Part shown: piece by piece, positions 26,071-38,064 of the stretch
Position numbering within the stretch: position 1 is the first letter of the stretch
Layout of the letters: the number at the start of each line of letters is the position of its first letter
DNA from: Prochlorococcus marinus str. MIT 9313
GTDB taxonomy: Bacteria > Cyanobacteriota > Cyanobacteriia > PCC-6307 > Cyanobiaceae
Direction of reading: 5' to 3'
NCBI RefSeq assembly: GCF_000011485.1
Contig: NC_005071.1
Span: 2,297,347-2,361,346 of the forward strand
DNA: 64,000 nt
The notes under the pieces: model-generated
The model's input: only the letters and a program-made list of their open reading frames with translations
Databases searched by the model: none
Told to the model about the DNA's origin: nothing
Translations under genes and position numbers: made by a program

Positions 26071-26376
26071 ATGGAGCTCCTCGCCGAGTACTTCAAAGTG
26101 TTCTCAGAGCCCAATCGCCTGGCAGTTCTTGAAGCACTCAGGAGCGGGCCTCTCAACGTAACCGCCGTTGTTGAAAAAACTGACCTAAGCCAGGCCCTGG
26201 TATCGAAACACCTGAAGCTGCTGACCATCGCTGGAGTGGTGCATCGCCGCCCCGAAGGGTCCCTCGTGTACTACGAGGTGATGGACAAGGCTGTCTTCAA
26301 ACTGATTAGCCAGGCGCAAAAACTGATCATGACCGCCCGCCGCCAACAGCTCGACGAACTCTCCTCCATCATTTGA
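26071..26376 (+). CDS. ArsR family HTH transcriptional regulator
   Basis: A 101-residue winged-helix repressor: FKVFSEPNRLAVLEALRSG leads into the recognition region KTDLSQALVSKHLKLLTIAGVVHRRPEG, followed by the wing SLVYYEV. There is no cysteine anywhere in the protein, so the classical alpha-3 metal site (ELCVCDL type) is missing and the inducer must be something else or bind at another site. It overlaps the pentapeptide-repeat gene by one base (TGATG), making a two-gene operon. Confidence 0.9.
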   Translation: MELLAEYFKVFSEPNRLAVLEALRSGPLNVTAVVEKTDLSQALVSKHLKLLTIAGVVHRRPEGSLVYYEVMDKAVFKLISQAQKLIMTARRQQLDELSSII

Positions 26377-27038: not shown

Positions 27039-27239
27039 AACTCAAAACCAATCAATCCATTGCTAAGCCCATGGCAAGGCGCTGATGCTGATCTTCATTA
27101 GCCCTGCCAATGCAGATCTTTCAAAACCGCTACTGAAAGGATTAAGCCTCAGCAGTAAGACACCCTGCTAAACAGATAGAACATCAAGCAGCGGGCCCAA
27201 GCGGCATTGGCTAAGAATCCTCTTAACCCCATCGCTCCC

Positions 27240-27908
27240 ATGGGTGCACCCTCCCCTGATCAAGACATAGCAGCGATTAGGCGGAATTACCAAAGAGCAA
27301 GCCTGCGCAGTGTCGACCTAGAGGCCGATCCAGTGGAGCAATTCCGTCGCTGGCTTCAGCAAGCCATCGCAGCTGATCTGCAAGAGTCCACAGCCATGGT
27401 GCTCAGCACCTTTGATGGCAAGCGCCCCAGTAGCCGCACAGTGCTGCTCAAAGCCTTTGACAAGCGCGGATTTGTGTTCTTCACCAATTACGGCAGCCGA
27501 AAAGCCGAAGACATTTCTGCGCATCCGAATGTGAGCCTGCTATTTCCCTGGTATGACCTTGAGCGGCAAGTCGCAATCATGGGCCCTGCTGAGCGCATCA
27601 GCAGAGCTGAATCTCAGGCCTATTTCAGCTCAAGACCCTTCGGGAGTCGCCTTGGGGTCTGGGTATCGCAGCAAAGCCAAGTAATCAGCTCGCGCCAGAT
27701 CCTGGAAATGAAATGGCAAGAAATGAATCGTCGCTTCGCCAATGGTGAAGTACCCCTCCCTGAGTTCTGGGGTGGCTTTCGGGTGGCTCCGACTGAATTC
27801 GAATTCTGGCAGGGACGCGAGAACCGGCTAAACGATCGATTTCGCTACCGACCCCAACAAGACAGCAACCATGCGCAAACCTGGCGCATCGAGCGCTTGG
27901 CCCCATGA
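27240..27908 (+). CDS. pdxH: Pyridoxamine 5'-phosphate oxidase
   Basis: About 222 residues from the ATG at 27240; the frame is open to a TTG at 27207 but the shorter form fits the family. It oxidises pyridoxine or pyridoxamine phosphate to pyridoxal phosphate using FMN. Landmarks are [22 protein letters not shown] at the start, [29 protein letters not shown] at the FMN site, [19 protein letters not shown], and the C-terminal [17 protein letters not shown]. All expected blocks are intact. Confidence 0.95.
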
Positions 27909-27989: not shown

Positions 27990-30077
27990 ATGGAGTCCAC
28001 CACCCCCAGCCATCAATGCATGATGCGGATGGCTCCCTACCTAATCGGTCGCCCACGCCGCGGCGTGGTGGGAGGCAGCCGTTATGCCTGCAAGTTACGG
28101 GAATCCATTCGCCAAGCAGCCAATGATCCAGAGCGCAAGCCAGTCTTAATCAGTGGTGAACCAGGCTTAGAAAAAGACAACATCGCCAGACTGGTGCATT
28201 TCGGCTCTGCCGATCGACGCCTTCTTTTGATGCGCTTCGATGCCAGCAACATACGAGGCCAAGGCGTTGAACTTTTTGGCAGAGAAGGCTCTCATGAACT
28301 GTCTCTGCTCGATTGCCTAGGGAATGGCAACCTTCTGATCGACTGCATTGATCTTGCAGAGCCTCAACTGCAAGCACGTCTGATTGCCCTTGCCACTGAA
28401 GGCCACCCTGCCTTCTCGGGGCGGATCTTGTTGACTGCCGAATCAAGCCTCAAAGAGCTAGAGGGGATAGCAACTCAGATCAGAGTGCCACCCTTAAGAG
28501 TGCGACGATCCGATCTGGGCGATTGGCTCCGTTACAGCCTGCGCCAGCGCAGCCCCAGTCTGGGCTGGAGTCGCCCTCCCGAGTTGCCCGAAGCAATTGT
28601 CAGGCGACTGCAAAGCCACGATTTCCCGAACAACATCCGCGAATTGGACAGCGTGGTGGAACGGGCCCTGCAACAAGCCCGCAGCCAGGCCGCGGCTGAG
28701 CAAGCAAGCGCTGCAATCACCATGGTCCTACCCGCAGCTTTGCCGGAAGACGTGTTCTGGGTGAACAGCCGGGAACCCAACCTGCGCTTTGAGATCTGGC
28801 GCTGGAAGCCTCAACTACGTCAGTTGATGCGCTCACCCCAACTCTGGAACGGCTTGCTTTTTGGGCTGGTGAGCTGGGTCTTCGTGCTAGTGAACCTGTG
28901 GCTGTGGTTTGGCCCACAAGACAGGGCACATAACAGCATGCTCAAATTTTTCTGGGCCTGGTGGTGGCCTCTGATCCTGCTGACTTACCCGCTAGTTGGG
29001 CGACTTTGGTGTGCAGTCTGTCCATTCATGGTCTGGGGCGAAATTGCTCAGAACAGCAAAAAGGCTCTCGCAAAATTGATCTCAACCTTGGGTTTACCTA
29101 CTGGTTGGTTGCAACCAAGGCTCTGGCCCCATGGCGATCACGACAGTTGGGGCGCACCAGTTTTGGCGATAGGGTTCGCAGCGATCCTGATCTGGGAAGA
29201 GGTCTGGAACCTAGAAGACACAGCCCGACTCAGCAGTTACCTCTTGCTACTGATTACCTCAGGAGCTGTGCTGTGTTCACTGGTCTTCGAAAAGCGATTC
29301 TGGTGCCGCTATCTCTGCCCAGTTGGCGGCATGAATGGCCTATTCGCAAAGCTTTCGATCCTCGAATTACGTGCGCAATCGGGCACTTGCTCAGGGAGTT
29401 GCACGTCCTACGCCTGTTTCAAAGGAGGTCCTGCTGAAGGCGAAGGTATGGCTAGCGAAGGTTGCCCCCTGGGCACCCATCCAGCCCATCTCAGCGACAA
29501 CCGCAACTGTGTCCTTTGTCTGACCTGCGCACAAGCATGCCCGCACCACTCCGTGCAATTGCGACTGCGGCCTCCAGCCGCAGATCTGCAACGCAGCATG
29601 CATGGTCCAAAAGGCGAGAAGGGATTGATCTTGGTGTTGGCCGGTGGAATCACCCTGCATCATTGGCAACGACTACTGGGCTGGTTGCCCCTGGCTCCAG
29701 AGTCTCTCCAGGAGGGGCCCCTTTTTGCGCGGCTGGTGTTTGCTGCACTAGCGCTAAGCCTGCCAGCAGCTGCAGGTCTGTGGGTGGAGCGTCGCTGGCT
29801 GTACACCGCCTTACCACTGTTATGGAGCGTGCTCTTGGCGCGTCATCTACCGATTGGCATGGCAGAGGCCGGCACTGTGTTGCCGATTGGTTGGCCTCAA
29901 TGGAGCGCCAATCCCAAAGTGATTGGCTTCTGCCAGAGCTTGGCCATTGCGGTTGGTTGGCTTGGTTGTGTGGTGTTACTTCGGCGTCTAATCAGCCGCC
30001 AGCGACAACCCTGGTTAACAGCTAGCGGAGCATTGTTGGTCTTGGCGCTGGCTAGCCGCTGGGTAGTGCACATCTAA
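27990..30077 (+). CDS. Fusion of degenerate sigma-54-activator AAA+ domain and membrane polyferredoxin
   Basis: A 695-residue two-part protein. Residues about 20-240 follow the order of a bacterial enhancer-binding AAA+ domain: a weakened P-loop (ISGEPGLEKDN), VELFGREG, LLIDCIDLAEPQLQARL as Walker B region, and FPNNIRELDSVVERAL near the end. The GAFTGA loop that touches sigma-54 is missing. The rest is a NapH/NosR-type membrane unit: hydrophobic segments, CAVCPFMVWGE and CRYLCPVGGMNG (CxxCP and CxxxCP motifs), then Cys clusters CSGSCTSYAC and CVLCLTCAQACP for 4Fe-4S clusters, and four more membrane helices. A nucleotide-gated electron-transfer role is one possibility; no function is known to me. 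Confidence 0.85.
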   Translation: MESTTPSHQCMMRMAPYLIGRPRRGVVGGSRYACKLRESIRQAANDPERKPVLISGEPGLEKDNIARLVHFGSADRRLLLMRFDASNIRGQGVELFGREGSHELSLLDCLGNGNLLIDCIDLAEPQLQARLIALATEGHPAFSGRILLTAESSLKELEGIATQIRVPPLRVRRSDLGDWLRYSLRQRSPSLGWSRPPELPEAIVRRLQSHDFPNNIRELDSVVERALQQARSQAAAEQASAAITMVLPAALPEDVFWVNSREPNLRFEIWRWKPQLRQLMRSPQLWNGLLFGLVSWVFVLVNLWLWFGPQDRAHNSMLKFFWAWWWPLILLTYPLVGRLWCAVCPFMVWGEIAQNSKKALAKLISTLGLPTGWLQPRLWPHGDHDSWGAPVLAIGFAAILIWEEVWNLEDTARLSSYLLLLITSGAVLCSLVFEKRFWCRYLCPVGGMNGLFAKLSILELRAQSGTCSGSCTSYACFKGGPAEGEGMASEGCPLGTHPAHLSDNRNCVLCLTCAQACPHHSVQLRLRPPAADLQRSMHGPKGEKGLILVLAGGITLHHWQRLLGWLPLAPESLQEGPLFARLVFAALALSLPAAAGLWVERRWLYTALPLLWSVLLARHLPIGMAEAGTVLPIGWPQWSANPKVIGFCQSLAIAVGWLGCVVLLRRLISRQRQPWLTASGALLVLALASRWVVHI

Positions 30078-30157: not shown

Positions 30158-30934
30158 TCAACGGCGCCAAAAAAGCAACAACACCAGACAAAGCACCCCA
30201 ATCAAAGGCCCCGGCGGCAGATCCAGCAAAATCGCCAGCATTAATCCGCCACTGCTCAGCAGCACACCAGTGCCAGCAGAGCGCAGCATCAAGACGCGCA
30301 GACTCTCGCTGCGATCAAGATTCACCAGCACAGGAGCGCAAAGCAGGGCAATCACAAGCACAACACCAACGGCAGTGATTGCGCTGATCACGACCAAAGC
30401 GGTGATCAGAATCGTGATGAAACGGATCTGCATGACCGGTCGTCGCGCCGCGATCGCTCCCTCCTGATCCACACCGAGAAACACAAGATCCTGATAACGA
30501 CTGAGCAACAGCAGCAGCAAGGCAGCGGCAGCGATCATCGTCCGGATCACATCGCTACCGTTGCCAGCAAGCATGTCTCCAAAAAGAAGGGCTTCCAGAT
30601 CGATTCGCGCTTGCAGCAGGGGCACCAGCAGCACCCCCAGGGCAGTGAAACCCGCCAGCACGGTGTTCATTGCGCCCTCCTCCCGGCCTTTGAAACGATG
30701 GTTGAGCTGTTCTGCCAGCAACGCACCCAGCAGACCGCTCAACAAACCACCGATTAGGGGATCCAGCTCGAATGCCAGCGCAAGCACCAGCCCTGGCAAG
30801 ACCGAATGGGCCATCAGATTGGCTAAAAGGATGCGTCGCTGAGTAATCAGCAGAGCACCAGCCGTCGGGCAGATCACCCCAACCATCAGAGCCAGGATCA
30901 GTGGCGTTAACCACCAAACGCCAAAGTCATCCAC
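30158..30934 (-). CDS. znuB: Zinc ABC transporter permease ZnuB-like
   Basis: A 258-residue ABC-3 family permease with about eight hydrophobic segments. GVICPTAGALLITQRRILLANLMAHSVLPGLVLA is the typical N-terminal block and AITAVGVVLVIALLCAPVLVNL the C-terminal one. It overlaps the ATPase gene by eight bases. Zinc rather than manganese or iron is inferred from the divergent znuA with a His-rich loop and the Zur-like box between them. Confidence 0.9.
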   Translation of the reverse strand: MDDFGVWWLTPLILALMVGVICPTAGALLITQRRILLANLMAHSVLPGLVLALAFELDPLIGGLLSGLLGALLAEQLNHRFKGREEGAMNTVLAGFTALGVLLVPLLQARIDLEALLFGDMLAGNGSDVIRTMIAAAALLLLLLSRYQDLVFLGVDQEGAIAARRPVMQIRFITILITALVVISAITAVGVVLVIALLCAPVLVNLDRSESLRVLMLRSAGTGVLLSSGGLMLAILLDLPPGPLIGVLCLVLLLFWRR

Positions 30935-31604
30935 AGCAGTGACTGCCCATCATGCAAGTCATGTCGGTGAGGTTCTGGCGAACTTCGTCGGGTGTGCCAC
31001 AGGCAAGGACCGTGCCGTCGAGCACCACCACTCGGTCATAACTGTCGAGGGCACTGCCCCAATCATGGCTACTCACGAGTAGGGTTTGTCCCGATTCTGC
31101 TTGCTGGCGCATCACTGTGAGTAGATGTTCACGCGTCGGCGGGTCGATGGCGCTGCAAGGTTCATCGAGCAGCAAGATGCTGGTCTGCTGCATCAGTGCC
31201 CGTGCCAGCAGCACCCGCTGCTGCTGGCCTCCTGAAAGCCGGTCGAGCCGTCGAGCACCGAGCCCATTCAGCCCAACCTGATTGAGTAGCTGCTGCGCAG
31301 AAAGCTGCTGCCCTCGATTGCGCGTACGCAGTCTTCCCAACTCCACCATCTGCGTCACCGTGATCGGAAACGACCAGTCGATTGACGCCCGTTGTGGCAT
31401 CAAAGCAATACTGCCGTTGCTTTCAATCGTGCCCTGATTCGCTCTAAGGCAACCCTGAATCAAATGAAGCAGGGTGGACTTACCAGCACCATTAGGACCG
31501 ACGAGGGCTGTGAGCGTCCCAGAGTGAAGGTCAAGATCAACACTCTTGATGGCAGGGCAGTTGTCATAGTCATAGGAGACCCCTCGCACACTGAGGCTTG
31601 GCAT
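30927..31604 (-). CDS. znuC: Zinc ABC transporter ATP-binding protein ZnuC-like
   Basis: About 225 residues from the ATG at 31604 (MPSLSVRGVSYDY); a longer frame reaching 31694 is open but its N-terminus does not look like ABC sequence. Walker A is VGPNGAGKSTLL, the signature LSGGQQQRVLLARAL, and Walker B ILLLDEPCSAID. It powers import with ZnuB and the periplasmic ZnuA. Expression should start from the shared palindrome at 31696. Confidence 0.9.
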   Translation of the reverse strand: MPSLSVRGVSYDYDNCPAIKSVDLDLHSGTLTALVGPNGAGKSTLLHLIQGCLRANQGTIESNGSIALMPQRASIDWSFPITVTQMVELGRLRTRNRGQQLSAQQLLNQVGLNGLGARRLDRLSGGQQQRVLLARALMQQTSILLLDEPCSAIDPPTREHLLTVMRQQAESGQTLLVSSHDWGSALDSYDRVVVLDGTVLACGTPDEVRQNLTDMTCMMGSHCCG

Positions 31605-31695
31605 CGCCGAGGCAATGCCAACATCCAACTGATGAAGAGCTTGGTCCTGTCTTGGAACTGAAACAAGAGAACGCACAGAACCCCGCCTAGTCATA

Positions 31696-31718
31696 AAAAT
31701 GGGAATCATTCTCATTTT
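31696..31718. promoter_or_regulatory. Zur-type operator between znuCB and znuA
   Basis: A 23-base palindrome with 11-base arms (AAAATGGGAAT and ATTCTCATTTT) around a central C, with a single mismatch between the arms. It lies between the divergent znuC and znuA starts. The GAATCATTCTC core is like Fur/Zur-family boxes of cyanobacteria. One dimeric repressor site could shut both promoters when zinc is plentiful. Assigning it to Zur rather than Fur rests on the genes it serves. Confidence 0.8.
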
Positions 31719-31726
31719 AGAGCATT

Positions 31727-32707
31727 TTGGCTTCAGCGCGCCGTATCACACCTTCAGCAATACACGCTCTACTTGTTCTAGCCACAGTCTCTGCTAATCC
31801 AGTTTCTGCACAGGCAAGTCAGCCAACCGTGGTCGCCATTGATGGTGTGCTCTGTGATCTCACTCGCACGCTTGTGGCCTCAGATGCCAAGGTGGTTTGC
31901 CTGATTCAACCGGGTAGCGATCCCCACAACTACCGGCTCAAGCCCAGTGATCGACAAGCTCTGAGCAGTGCAAGTTTGGTGTTGCACAACGGCTACAACC
32001 TCACCCCGAGTGCAAACAAAATCAGCGGTTCAGCCAAGGTTGTTGCCGTGGCGGAGAAAGCAATACCCACTACGGACCACGCAAACCACGACAACGGCCA
32101 TGCGGAGCATGGTGCTCATGACCACGACGGCTCAGACCCCCATGTCTGGCACGATCCCGCCAACTCGGCCGCGATGGTGACCGTTATTGCTGAGCGTCTG
32201 GCTCCTATCCTGCCTGCAACGCAACAGTCTGCATTGGCTGCTCGGGCTGCAGAAGCGATTAACGTGCTCAATGCAGTTGGTGATTGGGGCGGCAAGCAGT
32301 TCGCAACGATTCCTGAGAATCAGCGCGTTCTCGTGAGTGAACACAAGGCTTATAGCCACCTCACGAATCGCTATGGGCTGAGACAAATCACCATGCTCGA
32401 TTCCTTTACCACCGGAGGCGTTTTGCGCCCCTCTAGCCTTCGAACGATCACAGCTGAAGTGGAGGGGTCAGGCGCCCAAACCCTTTTTCCTGAATCTCTA
32501 CCTGTCAGCAAGACCCTGCGCCGCATCAACCGCAGCACTGGACTACCCGTTTATAGCTCACCTCTGTTCGCAGATGGCCTCGCTCCCGATCGCTCCACAG
32601 TTGGCACGGCAACGCTAAACATTTGCACTGTGGTCCAAGGCCAAGGAGGCCAGTGTGATCAGGCCGCTGCCGATGAACTGATGGCGCGTTGGTCCGCGAT
32701 TCGTTGA
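31727..32707 (+). CDS. znuA: Periplasmic zinc-binding protein ZnuA-like
   Basis: A 326-residue cluster 9 solute-binding protein that captures zinc for the ZnuBC importer. The N-terminus (MASARRITPSAIHALLVLAT...VSAQA) is a signal peptide. Binding features are GSDPHNYRLKPSD, a His-rich loop (HANHDNGHAEHGAHDHDG near residue 124), DPHVWHDP, and a conserved SEHKAYSHLTNRYGL. The start must be TTG at 31727, because an in-frame TAG at 31718 rules out earlier ordinary codons; this puts it only eight bases after the Zur-type box. Confidence 0.9.
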   Translation: MASARRITPSAIHALLVLATVSANPVSAQASQPTVVAIDGVLCDLTRTLVASDAKVVCLIQPGSDPHNYRLKPSDRQALSSASLVLHNGYNLTPSANKISGSAKVVAVAEKAIPTTDHANHDNGHAEHGAHDHDGSDPHVWHDPANSAAMVTVIAERLAPILPATQQSALAARAAEAINVLNAVGDWGGKQFATIPENQRVLVSEHKAYSHLTNRYGLRQITMLDSFTTGGVLRPSSLRTITAEVEGSGAQTLFPESLPVSKTLRRINRSTGLPVYSSPLFADGLAPDRSTVGTATLNICTVVQGQGGQCDQAAADELMARWSAIR

Positions 32708-32760
32708 ACAATCAATTTCACCTTTGTTGGATCCCTTTCAATTCATTCCTACACAAACCA

Positions 32761-33870
32761 ATGTCTCATCGTCTCTTCAATCGGCCCAAGTTTTTACTTC
32801 TAGCGCTCCTACTTGCTCCAACAACGCTTGATGCCACCTTCTGCCGCCCCAGCTTTGCAGGTGGCAACCATGGCGGCGGTGGCGCAGAAGCGCTAGAGGC
32901 AGGTGAATTTCGTACATCACCCGTTCTCACCATCGAAGGCCATGGAGGGTTCGAAACCAACCTCGATGGCAGCCCGGAGCACTACGCCATCGATGGTTTG
33001 TTTGGCGTAGTGATGGAGTGGGGTCTTGGCAATAACGGTAGCTTCGCGATTGAAGCCGCCATTGGTCCAGCCCTGGTGTGGGGTGAAGCAGAGCACTTTT
33101 ACGGCAAGGTTCATGTTGATGAGCATGACGAAGAGACGGATAGCCATAGCGACGATGACCATGCCGAGCATGACGATGACCATGACGACCATGGCGAGGA
33201 GCATGACGACGACCATGCCGAGCATGACGATGACCATGACGACCATGGCGAGGAGCATGACGACGACCATGCCGAGCATGACGATGACGATGAGCATGCT
33301 GGCCATGGGTCCCATGACACCGACTACAAGCGCTCCGATGTCCGCGGTTTCCTACAGGCGCGCTATGCCCCTAACGATCGCCTAAGCCTGTCGGTCTCTT
33401 GGAATCCCTACTACGTCACCAAGGATCAAGGCGAAGACATTAAGGGTCTGAAGAATGAACTAGGAGCGAAACTAGTTTGGGCACTGGGTGATGGAGATGT
33501 CAATTTTGCTCTCGGCGATCGCCTCGAAGACCTGATCGATGGCGTTTATCTCTCTATCGAGCATCGGCAGGGATGGGAATCGGATGGCACATGGATGGGC
33601 AACTACACCGATCCCCGTCTTGGAGTCGGTTTCAATGTCGACCTATTGAACATCAGCCTCAACGCTGGACCACGTTTCTACGTACCGGGCATCTACTCCG
33701 GACTCGAACAGCGCACCGATTTCGCAGGCGAACTGGAAGTTGCATATCCAGTGGGCAACAACACTGTTCTGTTCGCCCACTGGCAGCCCACCTACAGTTC
33801 AGAAGGAGGCTCAGGCTGGGGTGAAGGCTGGCAGCACCACATCGGCACCGGCGTCACATTCAGCTTCTAA
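32761..33870 (+). CDS. Outer-membrane beta-barrel-type protein with His/Asp-rich metal-binding loop
   Basis: About 369 residues from the ATG at 32761. A signal peptide (SHRLFNRPKFLLLALLLAP) is followed by strands typical of an outer-membrane barrel and a C-terminus ending GTGVTFSF, with terminal Phe. The middle contains about 70 residues that are nearly all His, Asp and Glu (DDDHAEHDDDHDDHGEEH repeated), encoded by 54-base tandem repeats. Its place directly after znuA suggests capture or passage of zinc at the cell surface, as with ZnuD-type proteins, though no TonB plug domain is seen. It may be in the same transcript as znuA (54-base gap). Confidence 0.75.
   Translation: MSHRLFNRPKFLLLALLLAPTTLDATFCRPSFAGGNHGGGGAEALEAGEFRTSPVLTIEGHGGFETNLDGSPEHYAIDGLFGVVMEWGLGNNGSFAIEAAIGPALVWGEAEHFYGKVHVDEHDEETDSHSDDDHAEHDDDHDDHGEEHDDDHAEHDDDHDDHGEEHDDDHAEHDDDDEHAGHGSHDTDYKRSDVRGFLQARYAPNDRLSLSVSWNPYYVTKDQGEDIKGLKNELGAKLVWALGDGDVNFALGDRLEDLIDGVYLSIEHRQGWESDGTWMGNYTDPRLGVGFNVDLLNISLNAGPRFYVPGIYSGLEQRTDFAGELEVAYPVGNNTVLFAHWQPTYSSEGGSGWGEGWQHHIGTGVTFSF
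33151..33288 (+). repeat. 54-bp in-frame tandem repeat, 2.5 copies
   Basis: Units at 33151-33204 and 33205-33258 differ by one base; a third copy matches the first 30 bases (33259-33288) before diverging. Each unit encodes the 18 residues DDDHAEHDDDHDDHGEEH. The length is a multiple of three, so copy number changes keep the frame and would lengthen or shorten the metal-binding loop. Confidence 0.92.
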
Positions 33871-37659: not shown

Positions 37660-38064
37660 ATGCCTGTCGATCAAAGTCAGCCCACACTGCGGCAGAACCA
37701 ACTTTTGAAAGAACTACGTTGCTGTTGCGATGAAATGAGCGGTCAGCAGCTGTATCGCGCCTTGCAGGACAGCCCCTATGCCATGGGACTTGCGACCGTA
37801 TACAGAAACTTACGCCAGCTTCAACAACGAGGACTGGTGAGATGCCGACACCTACCTACAGGTGAAACCCTCTATGCGCCAGTGGAAAGGGACCTTCATC
37901 ACCTCACATGCGTGGACTGCGGCAAAACGCTGCCGATCGAGCATTGCCCTTTGCACAACCTCAACATCCCGCAAGAGCAAAGTCATAATTTTCAGCTGAT
38001 CTTCCACACACTTGAGTTCTTTGGTCACTGTGAGAGCTGCCAAAAGGATCAAACCCTGACCTGA
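37660..38064 (+). CDS. Fur-family regulator, probably Zur
   Basis: A 134-residue Fur-type repressor. The winged-helix part has MSGQQLYRALQDSPYAMGLATVYRNLRQLQQRGLVRCRHLPTGETLYA, and the dimer domain has HHLTCVDCGKTLPIEHCPLH and FFGHCESCQKD, giving the two CxxC pairs of a structural zinc site. The sensing site resembles Zur more than Fur or PerR, and the neighbourhood (znuABC, His-rich outer-membrane protein, Zur-type box) fits zinc control. Fur cannot be excluded from sequence reading alone. Confidence 0.85.
   Translation: MPVDQSQPTLRQNQLLKELRCCCDEMSGQQLYRALQDSPYAMGLATVYRNLRQLQQRGLVRCRHLPTGETLYAPVERDLHHLTCVDCGKTLPIEHCPLHNLNIPQEQSHNFQLIFHTLEFFGHCESCQKDQTLT

Follow-up and report, generated by a model that had tools for sequence, protein, structure and literature searches.

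What does the AAA+ module of a sigma-54 activator do when it is fused to a membrane iron-sulfur protein in a cyanobacterium? This question was raised by a gene of Prochlorococcus marinus MIT 9313 located in the window, that is, the whole 64,000-nucleotide stretch of DNA analysed here. The gene occupies positions 27990 to 30077 as a single uninterrupted frame of 695 aa, and the nearest named relative of its product is found in Prochlorococcus sp. MIT 0701 (97%). The gene and its neighbours of interest in the window are as follows.

27990–30077, plus strand: whole gene of the pseudo-AAA+/membrane polyferredoxin fusion, 695 aa (open reading frame, Pfam matches and relatives in 71 genomes)
27207–27908, plus strand: pdxH-like gene, with an 84-bp gap upstream of the fusion gene (name taken from an earlier note on this DNA)
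30158–31715, minus strand: znuB and znuC, adjoining the fusion gene and convergent with it (names by sequence appearance)
37660–38064, plus strand: Zur/Fur-family gene, whose orthologue lies directly downstream of the fusion gene in marine Synechococcus

The sample comprised 291 genomes from the phylum (for part of it, one genome per species). Relatives of the protein were detected at E ≤ 1e-10 in 71 of these, and all 71 fall within the 138 genomes matching the photosystem II CP43/CP47 family. The uninterrupted fusion recurs in about 70 other cyanobacterial genomes, with internal stops absent in nearly all of them; orthology classes were assigned by alignment and tree. Synechococcus elongatus probably has a family member too, because both domain families match in its genome, each matched separately. 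At one locus (L028 in genome G257), the gene is divided between overlapping frames of 467 and 235 aa with the flanking order intact, which may reflect a frameshift, an error or a true split. Only two records of the plasmid collection cover at least 80% of the query, both of them cyanobacterial; a Rhizobium plasmid match was rejected as a family member, being a DctD-like response regulator, and no copies were confirmed on the viral contigs searched. No description of the AAA+/polyferredoxin fusion architecture was found in the open-access literature.

The N-terminal part was analysed by Pfam and NCBIfam searches, by alignment with E. coli PspF and ZraR as reference sequences and by fold search, together with an AlphaFold model of the 695-aa protein of moderate quality (mean pLDDT 69, pTM 0.51). 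The following features were delimited.

28047–28469, plus strand: EBP-derived AAA+ core, residues 20–160, without the GAFTGA loop and the arginine-finger segment (Pfam, PspF/ZraR alignment, fold search)
28155–28181, plus strand: altered P-loop GEPGLEKDN, residues 56–64 (conservation in 43 family members)
28329–28346, plus strand: degenerate Walker B NLLIDC, residues 114–119, with the Asp present and the catalytic Glu replaced by Cys (43-member alignment)
28479–28694, plus strand: AAA+ lid, residues 164–235, with the sensor II Arg in FPNNIREL (AAA_lid_14 match)

The Pfam results showed that Sigma54_activat matches residues 28–134 with 20.2 bits, exactly the cut-off, and that AAA_lid_14 matches residues 170–233, which is the sole match of this family in the MIT 9313 genome; in full-length relatives Sigma54_activat is clear (41–53 bits). 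Similarity to EBPs in NCBIfam is weak, far under the curated cut-offs. The fold search listed EBP AAA+ structures (NtrX, FleQ, NtrC1, VpsR, PspF and others), and a full-length relative gave the same picture, which suggests an EBP-type fold and agrees with the activator-like motif order read earlier from the letters alone. On the PspF/ZraR alignment, the GAFTGA insertion is deleted, as it is in all relatives aligned; the Walker B Glu is replaced, with E at residue 119 in none of the 43 family members; another sequence takes the place of the sensor I ATN, whose asparagine is absent; and the FRxDLxxRL segment, which by assignment from PspF we take to be the carrier of the arginine fingers, is gone in all members aligned, both in the window clade and in a paralogous clade described below. 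The Walker B Asp (residue 118) is D in 12 and N in 24 of the 43. The lid is retained, with the sensor II Arg217 in 34/43 members. The P-loop follows the consensus GEPGL[E/G]KDN, eight of its nine positions being kept in at least 42 of the 43 members; position 61 holds E (34 members), G (8) or A (1), and Lys62 is invariant. This lysine, together with the sensor II Arg of most members, makes nucleotide binding conceivable for the head. No HTH or other DNA-binding domain was found by Pfam in the window protein or the relatives scanned. The altered P-loop, the lost GAFTGA loop and the missing DNA-binding end reported in the earlier note were thus all recovered.

Judged from its sequence by ordinary criteria, the AAA+ domain is degenerate as an enzyme, yet it is maintained. 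Codon comparison of six pairs gave dN/dS values of 0.05–0.17 for the AAA+ region versus 0.04–0.10 for the polyferredoxin core, and the head is retained where a further N-terminal domain, considered below, has been lost. Because it is conserved, the AAA+ part very likely has a real function; the strong selection on this disabled part implies that it probably does a new job.

As had been expected for a cyanobacterium, no rpoN match was found in the MIT 9313 genome. Across the phylum, rpoN was above the cut-off in 2 of the 291 genomes, and only G125 is clear. This lone clear match, to the rpoN DNA-binding domain, scores 62 bits in a 207-aa frame of a Cyanobacteriia genome (L109, G125:C1:411956-412339). 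Sigma-54 and its activators were likewise reported absent from 29 cyanobacteria (PMC3162934). Since rpoN, GAFTGA, the arginine-finger segment and an HTH are all missing, the product of 27990–30077, as read from its sequence, cannot be an ordinary sigma-54 activator. It shares with the sigma-54 EBPs (PspF, NtrC, ZraR; PF00158/PF25601) the AAA+ fold, the motif order, ELFG and a GNxREL-type lid, but differs from them in lacking GAFTGA, the Walker B Glu, the arginine-finger segment, the sensor I Asn and the HTH, and in being fused to a membrane Fe-S protein in a genome without sigma-54. An EBP-type AAA+ domain without a working sigma-54 loop also occurs in VpsR, TyrR and HupR, and VpsR ranks among the top fold matches of the window head; these are soluble DNA-binding regulators, whereas the window protein sits in the membrane and has no DNA-binding domain. 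GAFTGA has been described as defective in TyrR, DhaR and HupR (PMC3162934).

The other half of the protein had been taken for a NapH-like membrane polyferredoxin, and the following features were found there.

28836–29579, plus strand: membrane polyferredoxin core, residues 283–530 (Fer4_5 and napH_ matches)
29010–29021, plus strand: cysteine motif 1, C341xxC344P (invariant, 43/43)
29304–29318, plus strand: cysteine motif 2, C439xxxC443P (invariant, 43/43)
29388–29540, plus strand: cysteine motifs 3 and 4, C467, C471, C476, C492 and C507, C510, C513, C517P (invariant, 43/43, save an unread X at 476 and 492)
29580–30074, plus strand: C-terminal membrane domain of about five predicted helices (AlphaFold model)

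Fer4_5 matches residues 418–455 with 34.2 bits against a cut-off of 22, accompanied by a weak Fer4 match (Pfam), and Fer4_5 matches in the MIT 9313 genome are confined to the fusion protein. The four cysteine motifs have the forms CxxCP, CxxxCP, CxxxCx4C...C and CxxCxxCxxxCP, and all 12 cysteines are kept in the 43 members. The core is the best conserved part of the protein, with a mean majority-residue conservation of 77% among these members, and about nine long hydrophobic helices are predicted in the AlphaFold model. With its Fer4_5 match, CxxxCP motifs and 4Fe-4S binding motif, this half belongs to the Fer4_5-type polyferredoxins. Potentially, the 12 cysteines could hold three 4Fe-4S clusters; the count of three and a cytoplasmic placing would follow the analogy of NapH-type proteins, and we infer the count and the membrane topology from the motifs and a model of moderate confidence. 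The likeness to NapH/MauN (TIGR02163) lies in membrane helices, CxxxCP motifs and a 4Fe-4S domain; however, the score of 39.4 bits over residues 329–524 is far below the curated cut-off of 213.05, which places the protein outside NapH itself, and the window protein adds a C-terminal membrane domain and the large N-terminal AAA+ head. NosR and CcoG/RdxA share the Fer4_5-type membrane polyferredoxin core, but no FMN-binding or FixG_C match was found in the window protein by Pfam, and the NosR model scored just 13.4 bits.

Most orthologues outside the picocyanobacteria are about 820–900 aa long and extended by some 150 aa at the N-terminus; the extension is a cNMP_binding domain (46–61 bits) in the one orthologue and the two paralogue-clade proteins scanned. 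This domain is absent from the window protein, and tblastn revealed no remnant beside the window gene. The polyferredoxin-core tree calls for four changes in the presence or absence of the cNBD-like domain, three of them forced by well-supported branches. Loss about four times, picocyanobacteria included, is the reading favoured by these sequences, because the domain tail persists in some shorter relatives (detectable in G119 and L083, weakly in G014 and L086); a CRP-like sensor domain probably preceded the AAA+ part in the ancestor and was lost in the window lineage. Loss of cyclic-nucleotide synthesis as the cause was unsupported, class III cyclase matches being present in 38 of the 40 genomes tested, including MIT 9313 and four shorter-form genomes outside the picocyanobacteria.

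The paralogous clade comprises nine rows with 100/100 support in the polyferredoxin-core tree. Its members (about 900 aa) resemble the full-length orthologues in their cNBD-AAA+-polyferredoxin order and have the same cysteine pattern, but they form a clade separate from that of the window protein, have an intact Walker A of the GKT type, and some copies lie on plasmids. The gene cysK was found directly or one ORF downstream in six of ten loci of this clade (L065, L066, L089, L090, L091 and the broken member L059). L059 itself comes from a short contig; there a frameshift separates the AAA+ part of the paralogue from the polyferredoxin part, and cysK comes next. Two of the paralogue-cysK loci are on plasmids that also bear psbA and Rieske (petC) genes. 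In L093 and L094, the paralogue adjoins genes that resemble those of HdrA, HdrB and HdrC, as judged by eye, and a cytochrome b561-like gene.

For the window-type gene, no neighbour or operon partner conserved across the phylum was found, nor any donor or acceptor gene. The earlier note described the gene as standing alone, which holds in MIT 9313, where it lies between pdxH and the convergent znuB; upstream pdxH-like genes are common only to close Prochlorococcus relatives. The description fails for marine Synechococcus, in which all seven genomes examined have the tight order SDR, fusion gene, zur and MBL-fold gene with very short gaps (L004, L005, L006, L022, L023, L024, L028). In Prochlorococcus, the znu genes sit between the fusion gene and zur. 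In WH8102, zur encodes a true zinc sensor (PMC9337993); two neighbouring locus tags were looked for in that paper, and neither is mentioned. Two further genes of the window were observed, namely an ArsR-family regulator without any cysteine (26071–26376, two genes upstream of the fusion gene), a relative of which is divergent to the fusion-gene orthologue in L015 and L037, and a His/Asp-rich repeat protein adjoining znuA (32689–33870), which is likely metal-related.

With moderate confidence, we propose an electron-transfer role for the protein: a 4Fe-4S protein of the membrane whose AAA+-derived head is non-catalytic and acts in regulation, docking or oligomerisation, rather than a transcription activator. 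Its NapH/NosR/CcoG-like membrane anchor would carry the three [4Fe-4S] clusters at its cytoplasmic face and would link a soluble reductant, by electron transfer, to the quinone pool or to a different acceptor in the membrane. The cytoplasmic EBP-derived head, presumably no longer an ATPase, would serve one of the three roles, and whatever binds it may control the electron transfer. More tentatively, a ligand or partner could act on the head so that it gates electron flow through the polyferredoxin; the head would then be a pseudo-enzyme in one of the two clades and would possibly bind nucleotide in the other. The earlier suggestion that a membrane Fe-S protein took on the AAA+ part for a role other than ordinary sigma-54 activation therefore stands, but nucleotide control is weakened for the window clade because the Walker B Glu is found in 0/43, the arginine-finger segment is gone and the Walker B Asp is kept in only 12/43; it is possible in the paralogous clade, given the intact Walker A. 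As for the ligand, c-di-GMP (by analogy with FleQ and VpsR) is unlikely, because no GGDEF protein is present in the MIT 9313 genome.

Alternatively, the protein may be a CcoG-like reductase of metal or sulfur species with a link to zinc or cysteine metabolism. The zur cluster of the seven marine Synechococcus genomes, the adjoining znu genes of Prochlorococcus and the cysK genes of the paralogous clade are consistent with such a role, which we nevertheless regard as unlikely: most orthologues in other cyanobacteria have no such neighbours, the picocyanobacterial gene order may be inherited rather than functional, and the WH8102 zur transcript is not zinc-dependent (PMC9337993). Somewhat less likely is a redox-gated membrane regulator, whose Fe-S part would sense redox and whose AAA+ head, together with the cNBD-like domain in those proteins that have one, would relay the signal, for example to transcription without sigma-54 as in VpsR or TyrR. 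VpsR among the closest EBP structures, the CRP-like domain of full-length relatives and the position of the gene before the regulator gene zur in marine Synechococcus suggest such a relay, but they are set against the absence of any DNA-binding domain from the proteins scanned, the lack of a conserved adjacent response gene and the fact that conservation is highest in the polyferredoxin core. A still smaller probability is assigned to nucleotide-driven electron transfer, in which the head would bind ATP and binding or slow hydrolysis would gate or power low-potential delivery; the missing Walker B Glu (43/43), the arginine-finger segment deleted in both clades and the replacement of the key P-loop glycine by E in 34/43 of the window clade argue against it, despite the GKT-type P-loop of the paralogous clade, the invariant Lys62 and the sensor II Arg. 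Finally, it is scarcely credible that faulty assembly or sequencing created the fusion or that the gene is a pseudogene in decay, although the P-loop and Walker B appear degenerate in isolation and the G257 relative is split: the artefact was rejected because the fusion is conserved, uninterrupted, in about 70 genomes, in line with the view that the two halves are a true single gene, and the AAA+ dN/dS is well below 1.

Our analysis reveals a sigma-54 activator AAA+ module that persists under strong selection in a phylum almost entirely without sigma-54, having passed from a role in transcription into a membrane redox protein. If Synechococcus elongatus has a member, as is probable, direct testing would be possible in a model strain. 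If the head controls electron transfer, the protein would be an unrecognised control point of photosynthetic electron flow or of metal or sulfur redox chemistry, shared by roughly half of the sampled photosynthetic cyanobacteria (71/138), including marine Synechococcus and MIT 9313-like Prochlorococcus.
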